Of a DNA stretch of 51,873 nucleotides, positions 5,538 to 17,302 are shown piece after piece (the stretch's first letter is position 1; each line of letters opens with the position of its first letter). The notes under the pieces are model-generated. The model was not told the origin of the DNA, did not search any database, and saw nothing but the letters and a program-made list of their open reading frames with translations. Location of the stretch: contig JAAYEJ010000024.1 of NCBI GenBank assembly GCA_012728835.1, positions 1-51,873 of the forward strand, in the 5' to 3' direction. Source of the DNA: Candidatus Brocadiaceae bacterium (GTDB lineage Bacteria > Planctomycetota > Brocadiia > SM23-32). Both the position numbers and the translations under genes were made by a program.

Positions 5538-5834
5538 TCAGGAGAGTTCGGCCAGACCCTGCTCGACCAGCCGGGCAATCAGGTCGCGCATGTCGGCCCG
5601 CAGCGTCTCCGGCTCCACGTCGTACTCGTCGAGCAGGGCCTCGTAGGCGCTCTGAATCGAGTCGGATTCCATGAGCACCTGCCACATGCGGGCGCCGACC
5701 TCGTCCAGACCGTAGTAGGTCTCGTTGTCGAGGTTCAGCAGGACGGCTTCGCCGTCGAGGACGTTGATCAGCACGTTCTCCGCCGCCGACACGCGCTGCG
5801 AGAAGGGCACGTCTGCCATGGCCGGTTTCTCCAT
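5538..5834 (-). CDS. Lasso peptide B1 protein (PqqD-like RiPP recognition element)
   Basis: The 98-residue protein has the PqqD/RRE pattern: VPFSQRVSAAENVLINVLDG, then EAVLLNLDNETYYGLDEVGA, RMWQVLMES and a helical C-terminus with ARLVEQGLAEL. In lasso systems B1 binds the leader of the precursor and presents it to the B2 protease and C cyclase. It is the last gene of the locus, 50 bp after the nucleotidyltransferase gene. I took the ATG at 5834 (GAGAG just upstream). A second ATG at 5819, preceded by GGAG, would give a 93-residue product starting MADVPFSQ and is equally possible. The family call is firm and the exact start is not. Confidence 0.88.
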   Translation of the reverse strand: MEKPAMADVPFSQRVSAAENVLINVLDGEAVLLNLDNETYYGLDEVGARMWQVLMESDSIQSAYEALLDEYDVEPETLRADMRDLIARLVEQGLAELS

Positions 5835-5884
5835 GCTCTCTGAGTCCGATGCCGTGTCTCCCGGCGGCCCGGAGCCCCGGACGG

Positions 5885-7108
5885 TCACCGCCTTTGCGCC
5901 GTCCTGTGCCCGGGCCGCACCAGCGCAGCCAGCAGCCGCCCGACGGGAGCCACGGCATGCTTCCGTATCATGCGCCAGGGACGCACGCCATAGTAGAGGA
6001 ACGAGAGCCCGTGCGGCAACCGGCAGTGCGACCAGTCGGCCACCGTCGGGAACGCGGTGGCCTGCCAGCAATGGCCGATGCCGTCCCGCAGGCGTTCGCG
6101 CAAGCGCAGGGCGTAACGGAGGGAGTCCGCCGGGATCTTCCCGCGCTTCTCGCCGGCCAGGAAGGACTCCGCCATCCGCTCCGCCAGCCGCACCGCACGG
6201 GAGTCCGCGTTCATCGCGTCCTGCACGTGTGCGGGCACGGGCGCCTGCAGCAGGCGCCGGGCCAGCAGAAGGCCCAGGTGCAGTGCGCGCAGGGCGTGCG
6301 CGGCGGCCGCGCGAGCCGTGATCTCATCCCAGTGCAGGCAGGGGGTCGTGCGCAACAGCTCCGCCACGTCGCTCAGCCAGCCCAGACAGCTCCAGCGGTG
6401 TTTGCCCCCGTGCATGCACAGCAGCACGACCATGTCCTCGGGGCAGAACGTCGGCACCTGCCGCCCCAGCAGGGGCACGGCGCGGAGCCGCCGCCGGAGC
6501 GCCTCGCGGTCGATGCGGGCCGGGAAGGTCTTCCCCAGGAGGCCCGTGTGCAGCTCCACCGTCAGGGCGCCGTCGCCCTCGCCGCGCACCATCGGGAGCT
6601 GCCGCGCCCGCCGCACCTGGGCCCTCTCCTGAGCCGGCGTGAGGTCGAACGCGCAGCGGTAGCCTTGCCCGCGGAGCAGCGCGCGTGCGCGGGCGAAGTC
6701 CGGCGGGTCGATCAGGATGTCCAGATCGCCGAACTGCCGCAGCGCGATGTTGCCGTACGCCAGGGCGGCCAGCGTCGGGCCCTTGAAGGGCACGGCGGGG
6801 ATTCGGTGCTCGTCCAGGAGGTCCAGCAGGCGGAGCAGTTCGGCGGTCAGGCGCAGGCTGTGCGCTGCGTTGGCCCGGCAGTCCGCCGCCATCCGCTCCA
6901 GGGCGGCGGCCGGCACGGCGTCCGGGCAGACGCCGCTCAGGGTCCTGTGCAGCAGGGGCACGAGCCCGTGGTCCTGCGCCGTGCCGCGCAGCCGGTCCCA
7001 ATCGAGCACCTGCGCGGCCAGAGCGGCGATGTGCGGGCGCGCGTCGGCCTCGACGACCGTGCGGGCGCACGCCGCAAGCAGCTCCATCTCGGGCTTCGCG
7101 CACGTCAT
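5885..7108 (-). CDS. Nucleotidyltransferase of the lasso locus
   Basis: The 407-residue protein belongs to the NTP_transf_5-like family often found in lasso and other RiPP clusters. The diagnostic stretch is IPAVPFKGPTLAALAYGNI followed by LRQFGDLDILIDP, whose DxD pair would bind metal and nucleotide. A helical C-terminal half contains the pattern CMHGGKHRWSCLGWLSDVAEL, typical of the family. In the Bacillus pseudomycoidin pathway a related protein further decorates a phosphorylated tail, so a role after the kinase is likely here; the added group is unknown. The start at 7108 has GGGGAG upstream and lies 16 bp after the ABC gene. Another in-frame ATG seven codons later is possible. Confidence 0.85.
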   Translation of the reverse strand: MTCAKPEMELLAACARTVVEADARPHIAALAAQVLDWDRLRGTAQDHGLVPLLHRTLSGVCPDAVPAAALERMAADCRANAAHSLRLTAELLRLLDLLDEHRIPAVPFKGPTLAALAYGNIALRQFGDLDILIDPPDFARARALLRGQGYRCAFDLTPAQERAQVRRARQLPMVRGEGDGALTVELHTGLLGKTFPARIDREALRRRLRAVPLLGRQVPTFCPEDMVVLLCMHGGKHRWSCLGWLSDVAELLRTTPCLHWDEITARAAAAHALRALHLGLLLARRLLQAPVPAHVQDAMNADSRAVRLAERMAESFLAGEKRGKIPADSLRYALRLRERLRDGIGHCWQATAFPTVADWSHCRLPHGLSFLYYGVRPWRMIRKHAVAPVGRLLAALVRPGHRTAQRR

Positions 7109-7124
7109 CACGCAGCGCTCCCCA

Positions 7125-8981
7125 TCACGGGTGTTCGCCCTGAACGACGAGTTGGCCGCGCTCCATCTGCGCATGCCAGGACTGTGCATACGGCCCCGCC
7201 CGCTCGACGAGTTCCGCATGGCTGCCCGATTCCACGATCCGGCCCTCCTGCATGACGTGGATCACGTCGGCGTGCATCGCCGTCGTGAACCTGTGCGTGA
7301 TCAGCACGGCCGTGCGGCCCTCGGCGAGCGTCCGGAACCGCTGCAGCCAGTCGCCCTCGGCCCACGAGTCCATGGCGCTGGTGGGCTCGTCCAGCAGGAT
7401 GATGGGCGCGCGGCGCAGGAACGCCCGGGCCAGGGCGACCCGCTGCCACTCGCCGACGCTGAGTTCCGCGCCGCCGGCGAACCACTTGCCCAGCAGGGTG
7501 TCGTAGCCCCGCGGAAGGCGGGAGATCGGCTCGTCTGCGCCGGCCGCCCCGGCGGCCGCTTCGATCTCGGACGCGCCCGGCGCGGCCGGCAGGTCGCCCA
7601 GGGCGATGTTGTCGGCGGCCGTGACGCTGTACTGGACGGGCTGCTGGAACAGGACGGTCACCAGGCGGCGGTACTGCGCGACCGGCAGGTCCCGCAGGTC
7701 CACGCCGTCGATCTCGATGCGCCCCCGGTCAGGATCGTAGAGCCGGCACAGCAGCTTGATCAGCGTGCTCTTGCCCGCGCCGTTGGGGCCGACGATCGCC
7801 ACGATCCGTCCGGCGGGGAGATGCACGTCGAAGTCGCTGAGCGCAGCGTTCCCGCTGCCGGGGTACCGGAACGAGACGCCGCGGAACCGGATGCCGTCGC
7901 GGAGTTCGGCGGGCACCGGCCGGGGGGCCGCCGGGCTGACCACGCGGGGCGCGAGGTCCAGAAACTCGAACAGGTTGCCGAGGAACAGGCAGTTGTAGTA
8001 GATCTGCCCGATGTGCTCGGTGAAGCTGCGCATGGCCGCCTGCCCGCGGCTGAAGACGGCGTAGAACAGCGCCAGGTCGCCCAGTGTGCCGCGGCCGTGC
8101 AGCACGCGCCAGACCATCCAGAGCAGGGCGGCGCCGGTCACCAGCAGCCCCAGCGCGGCGGCCCCGGCCTCGCTGAGGGCCTGCCGACGCGAGAGCGCCA
8201 CCCGCTCATCGCGCAGCCGCTGCCGCAGCACTCGGTGTAGTGCCCGGAAGTGGTCTCCCAGCGCGAAGAGGCGCAGTTCGGCGGCGTTCTCCTTGGACGT
8301 CAGAACCCAGTCGTAGTACCACGTGCGCCGCTCGTTCTCCGTGTTGCGCAGCCGCCACTGGTGCTCCCGCAGGGCGAAGGCCAGCATGACGTAGAACGCC
8401 GGCATTGCGGCGGTCAGCAGCGCTACGGGAAGCCACCATCCGTACGGGACCAGCACCGCCGCCATGGCCAGCAGCGTGACGCCGTTCTGCAGCAGGCTGC
8501 CCGTGTTCTCCAGCAGGGCGACGGACCGGTAGCCGGCCTGGTCCCGGGCGCGATGCAGGTGATCGAAGAACTCGGGCGACTCGTAGAACGCCAGGTCGGC
8601 GGCGACCGACTGCTCGTGGATCAGGCCGCTGATGTGGTCCCGGAGGAGTTCCGACTGCACGGTGCGCACCAGGCCGGCGGCGACGCGCAGCAGTTCGTGC
8701 GCCAGCACGAGCGCCGCCACCAGGGCCGCCAGGACCAGCACCGGCCGCATGCGCTTCCAGTCGCCGCCCGCCAGCGCGACCTCCTGAAGTCCGTTGATCA
8801 GCGAACGGGCCAGGTAGACCGTGGCCGCCGGCAGGACGCCCTGCACCAGCAGCAGAACGACCCAGACCAGCGTCCATCGGCGCGTGGCATCCCAGACAAG
8901 GCTCAGCGTGTCCGGCATGTGCCGGATCTGTGCCAGGGCCTTGCGGAGGTTGGTGCCGAAGATACCGAGTGCGGATTGCAT
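7125..8981 (-). CDS. Lasso peptide exporter (ABC transporter, D protein)
   Basis: The 618-residue protein fuses a six-helix membrane domain (about residues 35-320) to one ATPase domain. The ATPase has Walker A GPNGAGKST at 398-406, a Q-loop in LFQQPVQYSV, signature LSVGEWQ at 507-513, Walker B IILLDE at 527-532 and an ITHR switch. The signature is the LS-G-E variant seen in bacterial peptide exporters rather than LSGGQ. There is no N-terminal C39 protease domain, as expected when B2 removes the leader. As a homodimer it would export the mature lasso peptide and give self-immunity. It lies 85 bp after the kinase gene and 16 bp before the nucleotidyltransferase gene. Confidence 0.92.
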   Translation of the reverse strand: MQSALGIFGTNLRKALAQIRHMPDTLSLVWDATRRWTLVWVVLLLVQGVLPAATVYLARSLINGLQEVALAGGDWKRMRPVLVLAALVAALVLAHELLRVAAGLVRTVQSELLRDHISGLIHEQSVAADLAFYESPEFFDHLHRARDQAGYRSVALLENTGSLLQNGVTLLAMAAVLVPYGWWLPVALLTAAMPAFYVMLAFALREHQWRLRNTENERRTWYYDWVLTSKENAAELRLFALGDHFRALHRVLRQRLRDERVALSRRQALSEAGAAALGLLVTGAALLWMVWRVLHGRGTLGDLALFYAVFSRGQAAMRSFTEHIGQIYYNCLFLGNLFEFLDLAPRVVSPAAPRPVPAELRDGIRFRGVSFRYPGSGNAALSDFDVHLPAGRIVAIVGPNGAGKSTLIKLLCRLYDPDRGRIEIDGVDLRDLPVAQYRRLVTVLFQQPVQYSVTAADNIALGDLPAAPGASEIEAAAGAAGADEPISRLPRGYDTLLGKWFAGGAELSVGEWQRVALARAFLRRAPIILLDEPTSAMDSWAEGDWLQRFRTLAEGRTAVLITHRFTTAMHADVIHVMQEGRIVESGSHAELVERAGPYAQSWHAQMERGQLVVQGEHP

Positions 8982-9066: not shown

Positions 9067-10083
9067 CTACGCGCACTCCGACTCGACGGGTGCGGCGGCC
9101 GAGTCGGGTTCCGTGCCCGGCGTTCGGGAGGTCTGCGGCGGTCCGACGTGGGCCAGGATCGCCGTGCGAACGTCCTGGAGGAGCGAGTAGTGCCGCGGGT
9201 AGGACAGGCGGAAGAGCGGCACCATGCGGCTCCAGCGGACGATCCGCTCGAACTCCCGGCGGAGCAGGTCCCGATCGTCCACGAGCAGATGGAACGTGCC
9301 CTTCATCAGTTCCATGGCCGTATCGCGCAGGGACACCGGCGCGATCGTGATCCCGTCGGCGTCGGCCGTCTGCCCCGGAGGTGCCAGCAGGTAGGCGCCG
9401 CGCAGCCGGACGGGGCCTTCGTGCCAGGTCATGCCCGTGTCGGCAGGCGAGAGCCGCCTCTTCCCCGTGTAGTGGGCGACCTGCGGCAGCGCCGTGTCCG
9501 CTCCGAACAGCGTCTCCACACTGTCCCGCCAGAGGCGCAGGCTGGGGTAGGTGGCCACGACCGAGAGCGCCCCGCCGTCTTCGCTGACGATGATCGAGTC
9601 GTCCGAGAGCAGGGGAGCGCCGTCGAGGCCGAAGCTGGACACGAGGGTGGACTTGCCCCGGCCGGTCTCGCCCAGGAAGGCCACCGCCTCGCCGCCGATG
9701 AGCACCGCCCCCGCGTGCACGACAACCCGGCCGCGGCGCGAGAGCGCAAGGGGCAGCACTTGGTCCAGGAGCAGGTGGCAGAGCGTCTGGCGCGGCAGGC
9801 GGGGTTCCGGACGGCAACTGAGGCACCGGCCGTCGGGGTCCAGCACGAAGTCGGCCATGCCGTAGAATCGCACCAGGTGCCCCTGCGGGACGACGCCCAC
9901 CGAATACCAGGCGCTCCCATCCGGCAGCTCCGCGTGCCGCACCCACCGGTGGACGTGCGGGCTGGCCGTCTCGGGAGGAAGCAGCGGAACGGGAGGCAAG
10001 GGACCCTCGCCCGTCACCCGCGGAAGCACCAGATGGGGGCCGCTTCCGCCGAACATCTCATCGAACCGAGACGGTTGGGTCAT
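9067..10083 (-). CDS. HPr-kinase-like lasso peptide kinase
   Basis: The 338-residue protein has HAGAV at 123-127, a P-loop GETGRGKST at 138-146 and LLSDDS around 158-163. This is the order seen in the C-terminal catalytic domain of HPr kinase and in the kinases of the paeninodin-type lasso clusters. Those enzymes phosphorylate the side chain of the C-terminal Ser of the precursor. The precursor encoded next to it does end in Ser, which supports this role. It lacks the N-terminal domain of true HPr kinase/phosphorylase and instead has about 100 residues with a Cys pair (CLSCRPEP). The frame stays open upstream, but that part shows no family similarity, so I chose the ATG at 10083. Confidence 0.88.
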   Translation of the reverse strand: MTQPSRFDEMFGGSGPHLVLPRVTGEGPLPPVPLLPPETASPHVHRWVRHAELPDGSAWYSVGVVPQGHLVRFYGMADFVLDPDGRCLSCRPEPRLPRQTLCHLLLDQVLPLALSRRGRVVVHAGAVLIGGEAVAFLGETGRGKSTLVSSFGLDGAPLLSDDSIIVSEDGGALSVVATYPSLRLWRDSVETLFGADTALPQVAHYTGKRRLSPADTGMTWHEGPVRLRGAYLLAPPGQTADADGITIAPVSLRDTAMELMKGTFHLLVDDRDLLRREFERIVRWSRMVPLFRLSYPRHYSLLQDVRTAILAHVGPPQTSRTPGTEPDSAAAPVESECA

Positions 10084-10720
10084 CCTTGGGACACCTGCCA
10101 GGGTTATGCGGTTGTCGTCCTCCGCCCGTGTCGGACGGAGTGGCCGCCATCGCTGTCTGCAGACGGTCCGGATGCGGAAAGAACGTGGACGGTGCGATGC
10201 CAACGATGTCGGACCTGCGTTGCGACCTGCACTCGCGGCGACTGCCCTCAACGCGGTCCCTGGGCGGCAGTGGGCGGCGTCCGGCCGATGCCGCCCACTC
10301 CCATGGCAGCGAGCGACTCCGACCGACAGGCCGAGGAGGCGAAAGGGCTCTCGGACGATCCCGTGCCGGCCTGCGCGCGTCCGGCATCCTGCCCGGTCAG
10401 TTGCACAAACGGACCCACACACGTCGGACAACGGTGTGCAGGCACTCGCCCGGGTCCGGTCCGCCCACGTTCCGCGGCCGGCCGCGACCGTCGGCACTTC
10501 TCACTGCGACAATCCGCAACCGGCTGCACCACACACCCGGCGCGGCAGATCATCACCCTCGGTCATCCCCGTCCGGCGGTTCGGGCGCGGTGCGGGAGAG
10601 GCCGGGCATCCCATGCTATCGCGGACACAATGTCCCGCGTTCTCTCCTAACCGTCAGGCGCCGCCCGCCATCACACTCCGGCGAACCGGGACAGCGCCCC
10701 GGCCGCCCATCGAGCGCCTG
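10084..10720. other. 637-bp stretch without a recognisable gene
   Basis: Between the lasso precursor and the kinase gene I find no ORF that looks coding in any frame, no second precursor with the YxxP...G leader motif, and no strong promoter on the minus strand. A short imperfect hairpin at 10621-10638 (minus strand GGACA-TTG-TGTCC core) lies about 80 bp past the precursor stop without a T-run. It could slow but would not clearly stop transcription. Confidence 0.5.
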
Positions 10721-10885
10721 TCACGAACGGTGACCGGGGTCCTTCCCGTGAGAATGCGGAGCCGAGTGCTCCACCATGCTTGAGCCTCCGCCCTTGGTCA
10801 GTTGCGCGACCGTCCCGTATGTGCTCATACACGGGGCGGAGTACCGTCTCTTTGCTGACAGAAAGCGTGTGGTGTCCTTCTTCAT
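10721..10885 (-). CDS. Lasso peptide precursor (A peptide)
   Basis: The 54-residue peptide begins MKKDTTRFLSAKRR and then carries the lasso leader motif Y15-x2-P18-x-M20-x2-Y23-G24-x-V26-x2-L29-T30-K31. Thr30 sits at position -2 of the expected cut, so the core starts at Gly32. Core residues 1-8 are GGGSSMVE. Glu8 is the only acidic residue at positions 7-9, so an 8-residue Gly1-Glu8 macrolactam is predicted. The tail is HSAPHSHGKDPGHRS: four His, no aromatic residue, and a C-terminal Ser suited to the adjacent kinase. The ATG at 10885 has GGAGAGG four bases upstream. The open frame extends further upstream, but the family pattern starts here. The gene lies between C and the kinase gene and has its own strong promoter. 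Confidence 0.92.
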   Translation of the reverse strand: MKKDTTRFLSAKRRYSAPCMSTYGTVAQLTKGGGSSMVEHSAPHSHGKDPGHRS

Positions 10886-10967
10886 GGATCCTCTCCGGAG
10901 CGGCCCGGATCCTGCAACACGGTTGCCACACTCGTCGCTCGTTGCAGCGCAACCGTAGAGAGGATCC
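10886..10967 (-). promoter_or_regulatory. Structured mRNA leader able to bury the precursor's ribosome-binding site
   Basis: Perfect 10-bp arms at 10958-10967 and 10886-10895 (transcript GGATCCTCTC and GAGAGGATCC) would pair the Shine-Dalgarno sequence directly before the ATG. Inside lie an 8-bp pair (10949-10956 with 10919-10926) and a 7-bp pair (10941-10947 with 10912-10918) that cross each other, giving a pseudoknot or alternative folds. The same bases also form two local hairpins, GTTGC-N3-GCAAC (10941-10953) and GCAAC-N3-GTTGC (10914-10926). The symmetric GTTGC/GCAAC boxes could instead be a protein-binding operator. Confidence 0.6.
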
Positions 10968-11054
10968 GCCCGCGTGGCGTTCTGCACGTCTCTCCAGTGT
11001 GCCGGTCACCGCAGATTGGACGGACGGCAACCGATGCACCCGCACCGGTCGCGA

Positions 11055-11083
11055 ATTATACCGGCAGGCGCGCGCCTTGTCAA
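11055..11083 (-). promoter_or_regulatory. Perfect sigma-70 consensus promoter of the lasso precursor
   Basis: The minus strand reads TTGACA (11083-11078), a 17-bp spacer, and TATAAT (11060-11055). All twelve bases match consensus in an otherwise GC-rich region. Transcription should start near 11048, giving a leader of about 160 nt before the precursor ATG. It lies just past the stop of the C gene and would let the precursor be made in excess over the enzymes. Confidence 0.85.
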
Positions 11084-11139: not shown

Positions 11140-13107
11140 TCACGGCCTGGCGGTTGTCTGCTGCGGCTCCCGTGCCGCCCGGCCGTGGCCCCGGCGCCAG
11201 ACGGCCAGTGCGACGGCCTGCCAGATCCTGCCGCCGTCTTCCACCGCCCCGGTGGCCGCATGGCGGCGACGGGCCTCGTCCAGCGTGTTCAGACACACCA
11301 GGTCAGCCAGGTCCGTCCTCGGGCCGTCCAGCGCATCCGCGATGAGGCCGGCGGCCAGCGCGAACCACCGGGAGAGGAACGCGGCCCCGAGGTGTTCCCA
11401 GCCCTTGCGCCAGGTGACCTCGGGCGGGAGCAGGTGCTCGACGGCCCGGCGGAGGGCCACCTTCGTCCAGCCGCCGCCGAGGCGCTGCGTGCGCGGCAGG
11501 CGGAAGCAGAACTCGACGAGCCGCTTGTCCAGGAACGGGCGGCGCGGTTCGATCGAGAAGGCCGCCGCCATCCGGTCGTAGCGCTCGAACGCCACGGGCA
11601 GGTTCGGGGAGTCGAGCCGCCCTACGTCCAGTTCGCGCAGGCGGCGCGGGAGCCCCCGCCCCGGCCGGCCGCGTCCGTAGTGGGCCTCCACGCGATCGGC
11701 CAGCCGGATGCGGTCCGCAAACGCGGGATCGACAAGCGAGTTCCGAATGAGGGCGGCGGCCCGCCGCCGTCTGCGCATGTCCCTCAGCCGACCGCTCATC
11801 GGGATCCTGTGGGTGGGCAGCAGGGGCCGAAGGCCGTCGTGGAACAGGAAGTGCCACGGAGACTTCTTCCAGCGGCGGTAGAAGTCCGCCAGGCCCCGGG
11901 CGTCGGCCGCGGCCTCCCCCCACCGGCCCTCCCGCAACAGATAGGCCAGGTACACCCCGGCATGCGAGGCCACCACGTCGCCGTCCACGCCGTCCAGCAG
12001 GACCCGGATCCCCTCCCGCCGCGCGGCGGCGTACATGGGCAGCGGCACGCTGATCATGTCGTTGTCGAACAGGTCCTCGGTGTGGCGGACGATCCGCTCG
12101 AGGTCCGGCAGGAAGGCCGGCAGGTCCGCCGGGCGGACGGTGAAAGGCCGCACGCGGCCCTGCGCGAGCACGGCGCGGATGGCCCGGCTCTCCGGGCAGC
12201 CGGTCTCGTCGTCCGCCACCGCCGAGAACGTGCGCAGCGGGCCGTCGGCGGCATTCGCCAGGAGGTCCCGCGCCACGGCCACGATGGCCGACGAGTCCAT
12301 GCCCCCGCTGAGCATCGCGCCGACGGCGTCGGGGGACCGAAGCCGGCACCGGACCGCCTCGGTGAAGACCTCCAGGAACGCTTCGGCATGCTCCGCGTCG
12401 GACCCGAGGCGGAGGTCCTCGGCGGACGGGTCGAGCGCCCAGTAGCGGCGCAGCGTCGCGCCCTGTCCGGAGACCGTCAGGGAGTGGGCCGGCGGCAGGC
12501 GGAAGACGTGCTCGTAGAAGGTGCACGTCTTGTCGATCGGCTCCAGGTCCGTCAGCAGGTAGTCGGCGATCCGGGCCTCGTTGATCCGCCAGGGCACCGC
12601 CGGCAGGGCCATGACGCCCTTGGTCTCGGAGGCGAAGGCGAACAGCGAGTCGGACAGGTGGTAGCAGAACGGCTTGATGCCGAAGTGATCCCGGGCGCAG
12701 AAGAGGGTCTGTCGGCGGGCGTCCCAGACGGCGAAGGCGAAGTCGCCCAGCAGGCGGGCAGGGCAGCCCTGGCCCCAGCGCTCGTAGGCGCGCAGGATCA
12801 GCTCGCTGTCGGTCACCGTGTCGGCCGGCCGGCCGGCGGGGCCCAGGGCCGCGATCAGTTCCTCCCGGTTGTCGATGCGGGCGTCGGCCGTGATCGTCAG
12901 GCCGCGGACGGGGTCGGTTGCCGGCAGCGTCTCGTGGAGCGATTCGGGCGTGGTGCGCAGCATGCAGTGTCCCAGGCCGACCGGCCCCTGCGCCCACGTC
13001 CCTGATCCGTCGGGGCCGCGGTGGAGAAGGGCGCTGACCATCCGCTCGACCTCGCGGGGCGCGGCGGGGCGACCATCGAGACGACAGAATCCGGCAATCC
13101 CGCTCAC
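11140..13107 (-). CDS. Lasso cyclase (asparagine synthetase-like C protein)
   Basis: The 655-residue protein has an N-terminal glutaminase-like domain (about 1-190) and an ATP-pyrophosphatase synthetase domain with the PPi loop SGGMDSS at 247-253. In lasso pathways this protein adenylates the ring Asp or Glu and joins it to the new core N-terminus. It starts with GTG, giving MSGIAGFCRLDG. Residue 2 is Ser, so the Cys2 nucleophile of true glutamine-dependent asparagine synthetases is missing, as expected for an enzyme that uses the peptide amine rather than ammonia. Its GTG overlaps the TGA of B2 (GTGA), so the two are translationally coupled. Without that context it would be read as an ordinary AsnB. 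Confidence 0.9.
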   Translation of the reverse strand: MSGIAGFCRLDGRPAAPREVERMVSALLHRGPDGSGTWAQGPVGLGHCMLRTTPESLHETLPATDPVRGLTITADARIDNREELIAALGPAGRPADTVTDSELILRAYERWGQGCPARLLGDFAFAVWDARRQTLFCARDHFGIKPFCYHLSDSLFAFASETKGVMALPAVPWRINEARIADYLLTDLEPIDKTCTFYEHVFRLPPAHSLTVSGQGATLRRYWALDPSAEDLRLGSDAEHAEAFLEVFTEAVRCRLRSPDAVGAMLSGGMDSSAIVAVARDLLANAADGPLRTFSAVADDETGCPESRAIRAVLAQGRVRPFTVRPADLPAFLPDLERIVRHTEDLFDNDMISVPLPMYAAARREGIRVLLDGVDGDVVASHAGVYLAYLLREGRWGEAAADARGLADFYRRWKKSPWHFLFHDGLRPLLPTHRIPMSGRLRDMRRRRRAAALIRNSLVDPAFADRIRLADRVEAHYGRGRPGRGLPRRLRELDVGRLDSPNLPVAFERYDRMAAAFSIEPRRPFLDKRLVEFCFRLPRTQRLGGGWTKVALRRAVEHLLPPEVTWRKGWEHLGAAFLSRWFALAAGLIADALDGPRTDLADLVCLNTLDEARRRHAATGAVEDGGRIWQAVALAVWRRGHGRAAREPQQTTARP

Positions 13108-13607
13108 GGCGGCCCCTTTCGGACGGGCGGGTCCCCGGGCGGGCCGTCGGGCCGTGCCGCCGTCCGGGCCTGTCGGAACCGGCCGAACCGGCGGCGGACG
13201 CCTTCGGGCTGGTTGACGGGCTGGCCCATGAGTTCGACCCAGGCGTGGGCCTCGAGTCGGCCCGCGTGCTTGTATGCGCCGACGCAGAGTTCCGTCTCGA
13301 TGCCGCGGCGCCGCAGCAGATGCTGCAGGACGATGGACTGCAGGAGGCACGCGGCGCGGAACGGACACCAGCGCGCGGCGACGGCCACCATGCGTGCCGC
13401 CTCGACCGCGCTCACCATGGCGCCGGCCGCGCTCGCTGCGTGTCTTGTGTCGGGCGGCGTTCCCGTGGCCGCCCGTCCGAGCACTTTCAGGCGCCGGAGC
13501 CCCAGTACCCGCAGGGCGACTGCCGTCAGCGGCAGCAGGACGAGTGCGCGGAGCAGCAGGCTGCGCTGGCGGCGGCTCAGCGCGCGGTACTGGCGCCACT
13601 TGCTCAT
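13104..13607 (-). CDS. Lasso peptide B2 protein (transglutaminase-like leader peptidase)
   Basis: The 167-residue protein starts MSKWRQYRALSRRQRSLLLR, the hydrophobic-basic N-terminus common in B2 proteins. The protease motif is CLLQSIVLQHLLRRRGI with Cys87, then ELCVGAYK and HAWVELMGQPVN with His121. The third triad position, usually Asp about eleven residues after His, reads Asn132 in the PVN motif. B2 cuts the leader after the Thr-x pair so that the C protein can close the ring. The ATG at 13607 was chosen because the family pattern starts there; the frame is open further upstream. A promoter candidate lies 47-75 bp upstream. Confidence 0.9.
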   Translation of the reverse strand: MSKWRQYRALSRRQRSLLLRALVLLPLTAVALRVLGLRRLKVLGRAATGTPPDTRHAASAAGAMVSAVEAARMVAVAARWCPFRAACLLQSIVLQHLLRRRGIETELCVGAYKHAGRLEAHAWVELMGQPVNQPEGVRRRFGRFRQARTAARPDGPPGDPPVRKGPP

Positions 13608-13653
13608 GGATGCGGGCGTTGCTTTCGGCTGACGGGGAGGCACGGCCCGGGCC

Positions 13654-13682
13654 AGTGTACCGGCTGGCCCCGGCAGGGGCAA
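13654..13682 (-). promoter_or_regulatory. Promoter candidate of the lasso B2-C genes
   Basis: The minus strand has TTGCCC (13682-13677), a 17-bp spacer and TACACT (13659-13654), each matching consensus at four of six bases. Transcription would start about 40 bp before the B2 ATG. It makes B2-C a unit separate from the precursor promoter. Confidence 0.5.
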
Positions 13683-15473: not shown

Positions 15474-15557
15474 AACGAACACGGACGAACACGGACGAAC
15501 ACGGATGGACACGGACGAACACGGACGGACACGGACGGACACGGACGAACACGGACC
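15474..15557 (+). repeat. Tandem 10-bp repeat array, unit ACGGACGRAC
   Basis: About eight head-to-tail copies of a 10-base unit (ACGGACGAAC, ACGGACGGAC or ACGGATGGAC) run without spacers. The unit length and lack of unique spacers exclude a CRISPR array. It lies just upstream of the four-helix-bundle gene. Confidence 0.9.
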
Positions 15558-15578
15558 GGCAACACGCCCCCCCGGCCC

Positions 15579-15627
15579 GTGCCGCACCCGGCCCGTGCCG
15601 CACCCGGCCCGTGCCGCACCCGGCCTG
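15579..15627 (+). repeat. Three direct copies of a 16-bp GC-rich repeat
   Basis: CCGGCCCGTGCCGCAC is repeated three times in tandem (about 15579-15626). It occupies the space between the two oppositely oriented 10-bp arrays. Confidence 0.85.
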
Positions 15628-15665
15628 CCCAGCCCCGGCGCAGGCGGGCTTGCCCGCCGGAGGCG

Positions 15666-15712
15666 GGTCCGTGTCCGTCCGTGTTCGTCCGTGTTCGTCC
15701 GTGTGTCCGTGC
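15666..15712 (-). repeat. Inverted array of the same 10-bp repeat
   Basis: The sequence reads GTCCGTGTCCGTCCGTGTTC and further copies of the 10-base unit as its reverse complement, about four to five copies. It can pair with the array at 15474-15557 to make a long imperfect stem. The rest of 15713-15948 holds no recognisable gene. Confidence 0.85.
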
Positions 15713-15948: not shown

Positions 15949-17184
15949 TCACCTCACCATCTCGTCGTAGCGCAGGCCCGTCCAGCGCGCGACGAGGTCG
16001 CGGGCCCACTGTGGGGAGGTGTCCTCCTCGCCGCGGGTGACGCGTTCGCAGGCGCGCAGGTAGAAGCCGTGGTGCGCGGGCGTGCGCAGGACGTTCAGCA
16101 GCTTGGCCGCGGCGGCCACCCGATCGGTCTCCGAGAGGGCCAGTGGCGACTTGCAGACGCCGAGGTGCGCGTCCGGGCCGTGGCTGTCGATGAAGGCGTC
16201 CCAGCAGGCCTGCACCGCCTCGGGGTCCGCCAGCAGGTCGGAGACCTTCTGCAGGTCGTCCAGGAACGGTGCGCGTACGGCGTCGGGCATGAGCCGCAGT
16301 CGGTCGGCCTGGATCAGGTAGGGTGTCAGCGAGGCGCGCTCCAGCACGTCGCCGCGGAAGTCCAGGTGGAACAGGTAGCCGCAGTGGCGGTAGAACAGGT
16401 CGTTGGGCTGCCAGAAGCAGAAATTCCCCAGGCTGTAGGCGATCGGCACCTGGTCGAGCATCTCGATGCCCTGCGGCACGTGCGGGTGGTGGGCGATGAC
16501 GGCGTCGGCGCCGGCCGACGCGATCAGGCGCAGCCCGTCGACCATGTAGGGCGGCGGCAGGGGCGTGTGCTCGCGCCCGCCGTGGACGATGACCACGACG
16601 ACCTGCGCGGCGCCGCAGTCCTTCAGGGCCAACACCTGGTCGGCCAGGACCTCGGGCTCGAAGCCGTAGCCGCCGGGGCCGCCCTGGCGGGAGCGGCATT
16701 CCTCGCCCTCGGCGCAGTTCAGGACGGCCACGCGGACGCCGCGGACCTCCAGCAGTGCGGGCCGGGCGGCCTCGTCTTCGGACATGCCCGCGCCGACCGT
16801 CAGGACGCCGGCCGCGTGCAGGTGGTCCAGCGTGTGGGCCAGGCTCTCGTCGTCGAAGTCGCGGGTGTGGTTGTTGGCCATGCAGGCGACCTCGAAGGGG
16901 GCTGCTGCGAAGGCGCGTGCGCCCTCGACGGGGGCGTTCAGGTTGGGGCCGCCCTTGGGGATGGGCCGGCCGACGTCGCCGAGCACGCACTCGAAGTTGG
17001 CCACCCGCACGTCGGCCTGCCGCAGGACGGGCAGCAGGTCGCCGTAGACGCCCTCGGGGTCGGAGAGCATCACGCCGCCCAGTTCGCGGATGGGCGCCCA
17101 GTCGCCGGCCAGCGTCATGCGCCAGGCCGGCCCCTGGCCCCTCAGGTCGGTGGTGAACACGCCGCTGCGCCAGTCAGCGCCCAT
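15949..17184 (-). CDS. CapA-family metallophosphatase-like protein
   Basis: The 411-residue protein has the ordered motifs of the CapA/PgsA calcineurin-like family. LAGDWAP comes near the start, followed by VANFECVLGD, CMANNHTRDFDDESL, VVVVIVHGGREHT, ADAVIAHHPHVPQGIE and IAYSLGNFCF. These supply the Asp, Asn and His ligands for two metal ions. Family members are linked to poly-gamma-glutamate capsule synthesis, but most, especially those without a membrane anchor as here, have no known substrate. The start at 17184 has GGAAGGA upstream. It is divergent from the ABC exporter pair and has no capsule genes beside it. Confidence 0.82.
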   Translation of the reverse strand: MGADWRSGVFTTDLRGQGPAWRMTLAGDWAPIRELGGVMLSDPEGVYGDLLPVLRQADVRVANFECVLGDVGRPIPKGGPNLNAPVEGARAFAAAPFEVACMANNHTRDFDDESLAHTLDHLHAAGVLTVGAGMSEDEAARPALLEVRGVRVAVLNCAEGEECRSRQGGPGGYGFEPEVLADQVLALKDCGAAQVVVVIVHGGREHTPLPPPYMVDGLRLIASAGADAVIAHHPHVPQGIEMLDQVPIAYSLGNFCFWQPNDLFYRHCGYLFHLDFRGDVLERASLTPYLIQADRLRLMPDAVRAPFLDDLQKVSDLLADPEAVQACWDAFIDSHGPDAHLGVCKSPLALSETDRVAAAAKLLNVLRTPAHHGFYLRACERVTRGEEDTSPQWARDLVARWTGLRYDEMVR

Positions 17185-17302
17185 GGTGATCCGTCCTTCC
17201 GTTCGTGGTGCAGGAGTTGCGAGCGCGCCGCTCGGACAAGCGGCGGTCAACGATAACACGGATCGCCGCCCGAGACCACCGCCGGCGCGGCCGCGGCGCC
17301 GC

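Follow-up and report, generated by a model that had tools for sequence, protein, structure and literature searches.

A plausible orphan translational switch in the mRNA leader of a lasso peptide precursor gene

Introduction

Alternative pairings set access to the ribosome site in translational riboswitches and in other leaders that sequester the Shine-Dalgarno (SD) sequence (available part of PMC10043782). Metastable hairpins that exclude one another conceal the SD of the H. pylori aapA3 toxin mRNA while it is being transcribed (available part of PMC6733600). Among lasso peptides, control of mcjA (microcin J25) involves ppGpp, IHF, Lrp, and McjX; in the available part of PMC13361873 the control described includes no leader-RNA switch, and neither "untranslated" nor "hairpin" occurs in that text. 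No leader-RNA switch is described for a precursor in the lasso peptide literature within our search, outside which most subscription papers fell.

Here we analyze a stretch of 51,873 nt (hereafter the window; 70% G+C) from the draft assembly of a Candidatus Brocadiaceae bacterium (3.07 Mb in 82 contigs, 96.9% complete). It holds a lasso-cluster precursor gene that, like mcjA (available part of PMC13361873), would have its own regulated promoter. The leader of this gene may share with translational riboswitches, as the available part of PMC10043782 presents them, alternative pairings at the ribosome site; unlike them, it has no recognized aptamer, Rfam match, homologues, or known ligand. The nearest working analogy is aapA3, in which, as is predicted here, successive exclusive structures hide the SD of a small-peptide mRNA; aapA3 has covariation, DMS footprints, suppressor mutations, and an antisense RNA, whereas the lasso leader is known from sequence and prediction (available part of PMC6733600).

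We infer that the leader controls translation. Our preferred reading, held tentatively and with confidence just short of even, is that the 3' part of the mRNA leader limits, and probably switches, translation of the lasso precursor, with three GGATCC boxes competing for partners. Taken separately, restraint of precursor translation is most likely and switching is possible, and the predicted structures make the leader a plausible, though unproven, orphan translational switch. Most RNA switches have been found through conservation, an approach blind to any switch that only one lineage has. If the reading is true, control of a lasso precursor would act at translation, a level for which we found no description in the lasso literature, and the exchange among three boxes would be a compact design; if it is false, the locus usefully illustrates how closely palindromes can imitate a switch.

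Results

The lasso cluster and its precursor

Judged on its sequence, the lasso cluster at this locus is complete (B2, C, A, ABC, B1). In minus-strand order its genes are B2, C, precursor A, HprK-related, ABC, PF14907 nucleotidyltransferase, and B1:

13104–13682, minus strand: lasso B2, transglutaminase-like leader peptidase (NF033537, E 1.6e-23; PF13471)
11140–13107, minus strand: lasso cyclase C, probable GTG start (NF033535)
10721–10885, minus strand: lasso peptide precursor A, 54 aa, peptide leader ending ...YSAPCMSTYGTVAQLTK
9067–10083, minus strand: HprK-related kinase-like gene, start putative (TIGR04352, E 8e-9, under cut-off)
7125–8981, minus strand: ABC exporter (PF00005)
5885–7219, minus strand: nucleotidyltransferase (PF14907, E 6.8e-61)
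5538–6071, minus strand: PqqD-like B1 (PF05402 above cut-off), true start within the ORF

C, B1, and B2 accompany the precursor, with matches to NF033535, NF033537, and PqqD PF05402 above their cut-offs. The cyclase scores 578.2 bits against NF033535 (cut-off 525; 11140–12999), or 622.6 bits with neighboring matches included; the B1 ORF matches NF033536 at E 6.7e-15, under the cut-off of that model. The ~640 bp that separate the precursor from the HprK-related gene (10084–10720, minus strand) hold no assigned gene; a hairpin-like CGCGGGACATTGTGTCCGCG lies near 10638–10619.

Lasso precursors have a leader of the form YxxP...G...LT with Thr at −2, and in their core the first residue is Gly and position 7–9 holds an acidic one. 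The precursor here reads MKKDTTRFLSAKRRYSAPCMSTYGTVAQLTK followed by the putative core GGGSSMVEHSAPHSHGKDPGHRS, and carries Y15-S-A-P, G24, T at −2, G1, and E8. From this sequence the core would be GGGSSMVEH..., with a Gly1–Glu8 ring. Its match to the cyanobacterial lasso precursor model NF033528 is weak (21.7 bits, E 1.4e-4, cut-off 33). Protein searches found no relative in 97 other genomes and none in plasmids; over 26 residues the precursor is 54% identical to a precursor-like ORF that adjoins a cyclase in a sequence from the same phylum (L134). That ORF (L134:2514–2645) overlaps the end of the cyclase gene and has a leader ending ...YKKPTLVEYGSVAKLTQ and the core GGGSIPHIDGNSGMTMPTK. The earlier note had placed our stretch in the leader of a precursor gene; this assignment holds, and the gene product is a lasso peptide.

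Promoter and extent of the leader

The gap between cyclase C and precursor A measures about 255 bp and includes a promoter:

11055–11083, minus strand: sigma-70 promoter TTGACA-17-TATAAT, 12 of 12 consensus bases
10886–11048, minus strand: putative 5' untranslated leader RNA, about 160 nt, starting ~7 nt past the −10 element

Shuffled sequence is expected to hold 0.1 promoter-like sites. Exact TTGACA-N16-18-TATAAT promoters number 14 in the 3.07-Mb genome (L140–L153) against none for the reversed control pattern, a notable result for a genome whose window has 70% G+C, so the consensus promoter is probably a genuine form in this organism. The transcript would start near 11048.

An N-terminal coding extension of the precursor, in frame from a GTG at 10987, was rejected. 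The G+C content by codon position of the in-frame stretch 10987–10886 is 0.68/0.68/0.65, compared with 0.74/0.53/0.94 in the cyclase gene; lacking a codon-position signal, the stretch before the ATG is unlikely to be coding. A search for an intrinsic terminator in the leader found none. A perfect 10-nt inverted repeat (10728–10737 / 11002–11011) joins the 3' end of the precursor ORF with the early leader; it possibly reflects long-range pairing, or chance.

Complementarities at the ribosome site

The 3' part of the leader contains the following elements, in 5' to 3' order of the RNA:

10958–10968, minus strand: box1 CGGATCCTCTC, partner either of box2 or of SD/box3
10949–10956, minus strand: helix a (ACGGTTGC), 8 bp with a' at 10926–10919
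10941–10947, minus strand: helix b (CTGCAAC), 7 bp with b' at 10918–10912, crossing a:a'
10919–10926, minus strand: a' (GCAACCGT)
10912–10918, minus strand: b' (GTTGCAG), two bases of which are common to box2
10906–10913, minus strand: box2 AGGATCCG, 8-bp partner of box1 that leaves the ribosome site outside the 10-bp helix
10886–10896, minus strand: SD GGAG (10896–10893, 7 nt 5' of the ATG) and box3 GGATCC

The earlier note had described a ribosome-site arm fully complementary to an upstream arm, two perfect helices that cross, and local palindromes, and each can be read exactly in the sequence. The arms GGATCCTCTC/GAGAGGATCC (10886–10895 with 10958–10967) pair over 10 nt at 100% with 62 nt between them. 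The crossing helices comprise 8 bp (ACGGTTGC/GCAACCGT, 10949–10956 with 10919–10926) and 7 bp (CTGCAAC/GTTGCAG, 10941–10947 with 10912–10918), and the palindromes GTTGC-N3-GCAAC and GCAAC-N3-GTTGC occupy 10941–10953 and 10914–10926. A third GGATCC, at 10907–10912, was absent from that description. It gives box1 an 8-bp pairing, CGGATCCT/AGGATCCG (10906–10913 with 10961–10968), that excludes the 10-bp pairing.

The pseudoknot that had also been proposed finds no support. A fold with both full helices, of 8 and 7 bp, would have linkers of 1 nt (10948) and 0 nt, too short to cross such stems. We rejected an H-type pseudoknot on this geometric argument, which was read from the sequence rather than computed; because the linkers are too short, the crossing helices are more likely to be alternatives to each other.

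Predicted folding and the proposed switch

Partner exchange among the three boxes could work as follows. During synthesis of the leader, box1 would pair with box2, enclosing the 8-bp a:a' helix. Once the SD emerges, its GAGAGGATCC would pair with box1 over 10 bp and block ribosome entry, and b:b' or the local hairpins may form inside this hidden fold. Any factor favoring a:a' or box1:box2 would then turn translation on; candidates are a protein, a ligand, transcription timing, or a ribosome that opens the start of the ORF.

All folding was computed with one energy parameter set. In prefix folding, an RNA with its 3' end at 10890 is predicted to contain box1:box2 and a:a' with P 0.95, and an RNA that ends at 10884 to contain box1:SD with P 0.88. 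Over 10972–10883, the box1:box2 fold has −36.2 kcal/mol versus −38.4 kcal/mol for the box1:SD fold. Two exclusive folds, as the earlier note had suggested, are thus predicted at nearly equal energies, and since the gap is small, about 2 kcal/mol, a factor could turn translation on. The buried ribosome site that it had suggested is borne out by prediction as well: box1 hides SD/box3 over 10 bp, and the pairing of 10895–10886 (0.94) was reached by none of 400 shuffles of the upstream sequence. The score for partner exchange at the anti-SD was reached by 1 of 400 upstream shuffles. Position lends further support, with a perfect promoter followed by a non-coding leader and then by the SD and ATG of the precursor. 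Unlike aapA3, the lasso leader is predicted to have a first fold that leaves the ribosome site outside the long helix. For a transcript begun at 11000, the open fold is predicted to be favored (0.87).

How the two folds are predicted to balance depends heavily on where the RNA ends, which leaves a stable two-state switch no more than possible: the value for box1:box2 is 0.08 at 10880, 0.80 at 10870, and 0.00 at 10830, and once more of the ORF is included the predicted partner of box1 lies within the ORF and that of box2 is box3. The ribosome site itself is predicted to be at most 0.36 unpaired for every 3' end tried (10880 to 10721) and between 0.09 and 0.28 unpaired from 10 to 75 °C. Such constancy is what plain damping would give, with box1 permanently hiding the SD, the inner helices incidental, and neither switch nor signal. 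Damping has no need, however, of an exclusive 8-bp box1:box2 pairing or of crossing inner helices, yet these are rare in shuffles, and we consider it fairly unlikely. An RNA thermometer was rejected on the predicted unpaired fraction of the site, 0.09 (20 °C), 0.10 (37 °C), 0.12 (45 °C), and 0.28 (75 °C).

Symmetry at the DNA level

The antisense strand folds nearly as well as the leader (−37.0 vs −38.4 kcal/mol), and the symmetry, being palindromic, would be just as visible in the DNA or in the other strand. The two inner units GTTGC-N3-GCAAC and GCAAC-N3-GTTGC, whose centers are 27 bp apart, and/or the GGATCC boxes could accordingly be protein sites in DNA, each of them being a palindrome. 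GGATCC, present three times within 82 bp, forms the only palindromic-hexamer triple of the window that is not purely G/C, a point that we count in favor of the three-box reading. Another palindrome, the 12-bp AGGCGCGCGCCT, sits in the promoter spacer (11055–11083, minus strand) and could be an operator. Several observations count against control at the DNA level: the site would lie about 80–160 bp downstream of the likely transcription start, profile matches revealed no regulator among the scanned lasso-cluster proteins, the window holds no other exact copy of the inner palindromes, and box1 plus four extra bases match the SD side exactly. On balance protein sites in DNA seem fairly improbable to us as the origin of the pattern.

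Frequency of the pattern and search for related leaders

Competition of three boxes for the ribosome site, the reading that we prefer, has to be set against how often such an arrangement arises by accident. In a test designed after the pattern had been seen, and with part of the symmetry automatic given two palindromic units and a palindromic hexamer, 5000 dinucleotide shuffles of the 166-nt leader yielded an inverted repeat of at least 10 nt in 72 cases, a 10-nt repeat with its end at the ribosome site in 7, crossing 8+7 stems within 50 nt in 3, and the crossing pair nested in the 10-nt repeat in none. Across the window, 4 of 2586 tiles on both strands have the nested arrangement, and all 4 represent the leader locus. 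Crossing stems are absent from all 13 leaders behind the other exact consensus promoters of the genome. Folding energy is ordinary (z −0.06 for a 208-nt stretch and −1.89 for the 88-nt module), 102 of 400 shuffles being equally or more stable.

A DNA search of 98 near relatives, own genome included, returned only short scraps beyond the window (best E 0.01). An RNA model (R1), for which the one leader sequence was entered twice, matched 62 of 392 phylum genomes at E <= 1, own included; its best non-self match (E 3.5e-4, one genome) is near the chance level for 392 genomes. Ten further matches that we inspected all overlap ORFs of at least 100 codons, and by contig none is at a cyclase locus. 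The sole match with similar outer arms (L160, E 0.004) has no recognizable adjoining lasso gene and was taken as chance. Around an 18-base pattern match on a viral contig, the surrounding stretch has no second arm of the leader's kind. Within the genome itself, where the only other RNA-model match has E 0.59, the leader is present in one copy, and a second copy or repeat element was rejected.

No related leader thus appeared among 98 genomes (DNA and protein searches), 392 phylum and 9 family genomes (RNA model), or the fetched loci. Neither a conserved aptamer nor covariation was found for the leader, the latter because there was no homologous leader to compare. Rfam gave no riboswitch or other match at gathering scores, and sub-threshold matches were to microRNA only (E 0.57 or worse). 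We also collected 40 regions upstream of lasso-precursor-like ORFs, motif matches of which at least two look false (L033 minus, L078 minus), with candidates that had less than 166 nt upstream dropped and starts picked by SD score: crossing 7-bp stems occur in none, an 8-bp stem on the ribosome site in 1, and an inverted repeat of at least 9 nt anywhere in 2. A functionless leader, rich in G+C, whose inverted repeats arose by accident would agree with the lack of conservation found, with the ordinary folding energy, and with a pattern chosen after reading the window, but chance is unlikely given a nested pattern that no shuffle reproduced and that falls on the ribosome site of a gene behind a consensus promoter.

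At E <= 1e-60 the cyclase is present in 7 of the 392 phylum genomes, one of which is the genome of the window. The eight other family genomes lack the cyclase model at 1e-60 and B2 at 1e-5, which suggests that the cluster is an isolated acquisition or a rare survivor. In the most far-reaching form of the box-exchange reading, a lineage-private orphan riboregulator would sense how its own lasso system stands, perhaps through the completed peptide, a factor that binds the precursor, or a metabolite, and set precursor translation by three-box partner exchange. It would be the first lasso leader-RNA switch described, and we regard this form as distinctly improbable.

Two further observations concern other parts of the window. 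A PGA_cap-family gene near the lasso cluster (15949–17259, minus strand) scores weakly against the model of the lasso epimerase MslH, with 61.2 bits for a cut-off of 700. Tandem-repeat arrays of 10 and 16 bp occupy 15475–15704, with ACGAACACGG repeated 8 times, CCCGGCCCGTGCCGCA 3 times, and GTCCGTGTTC 4 times.
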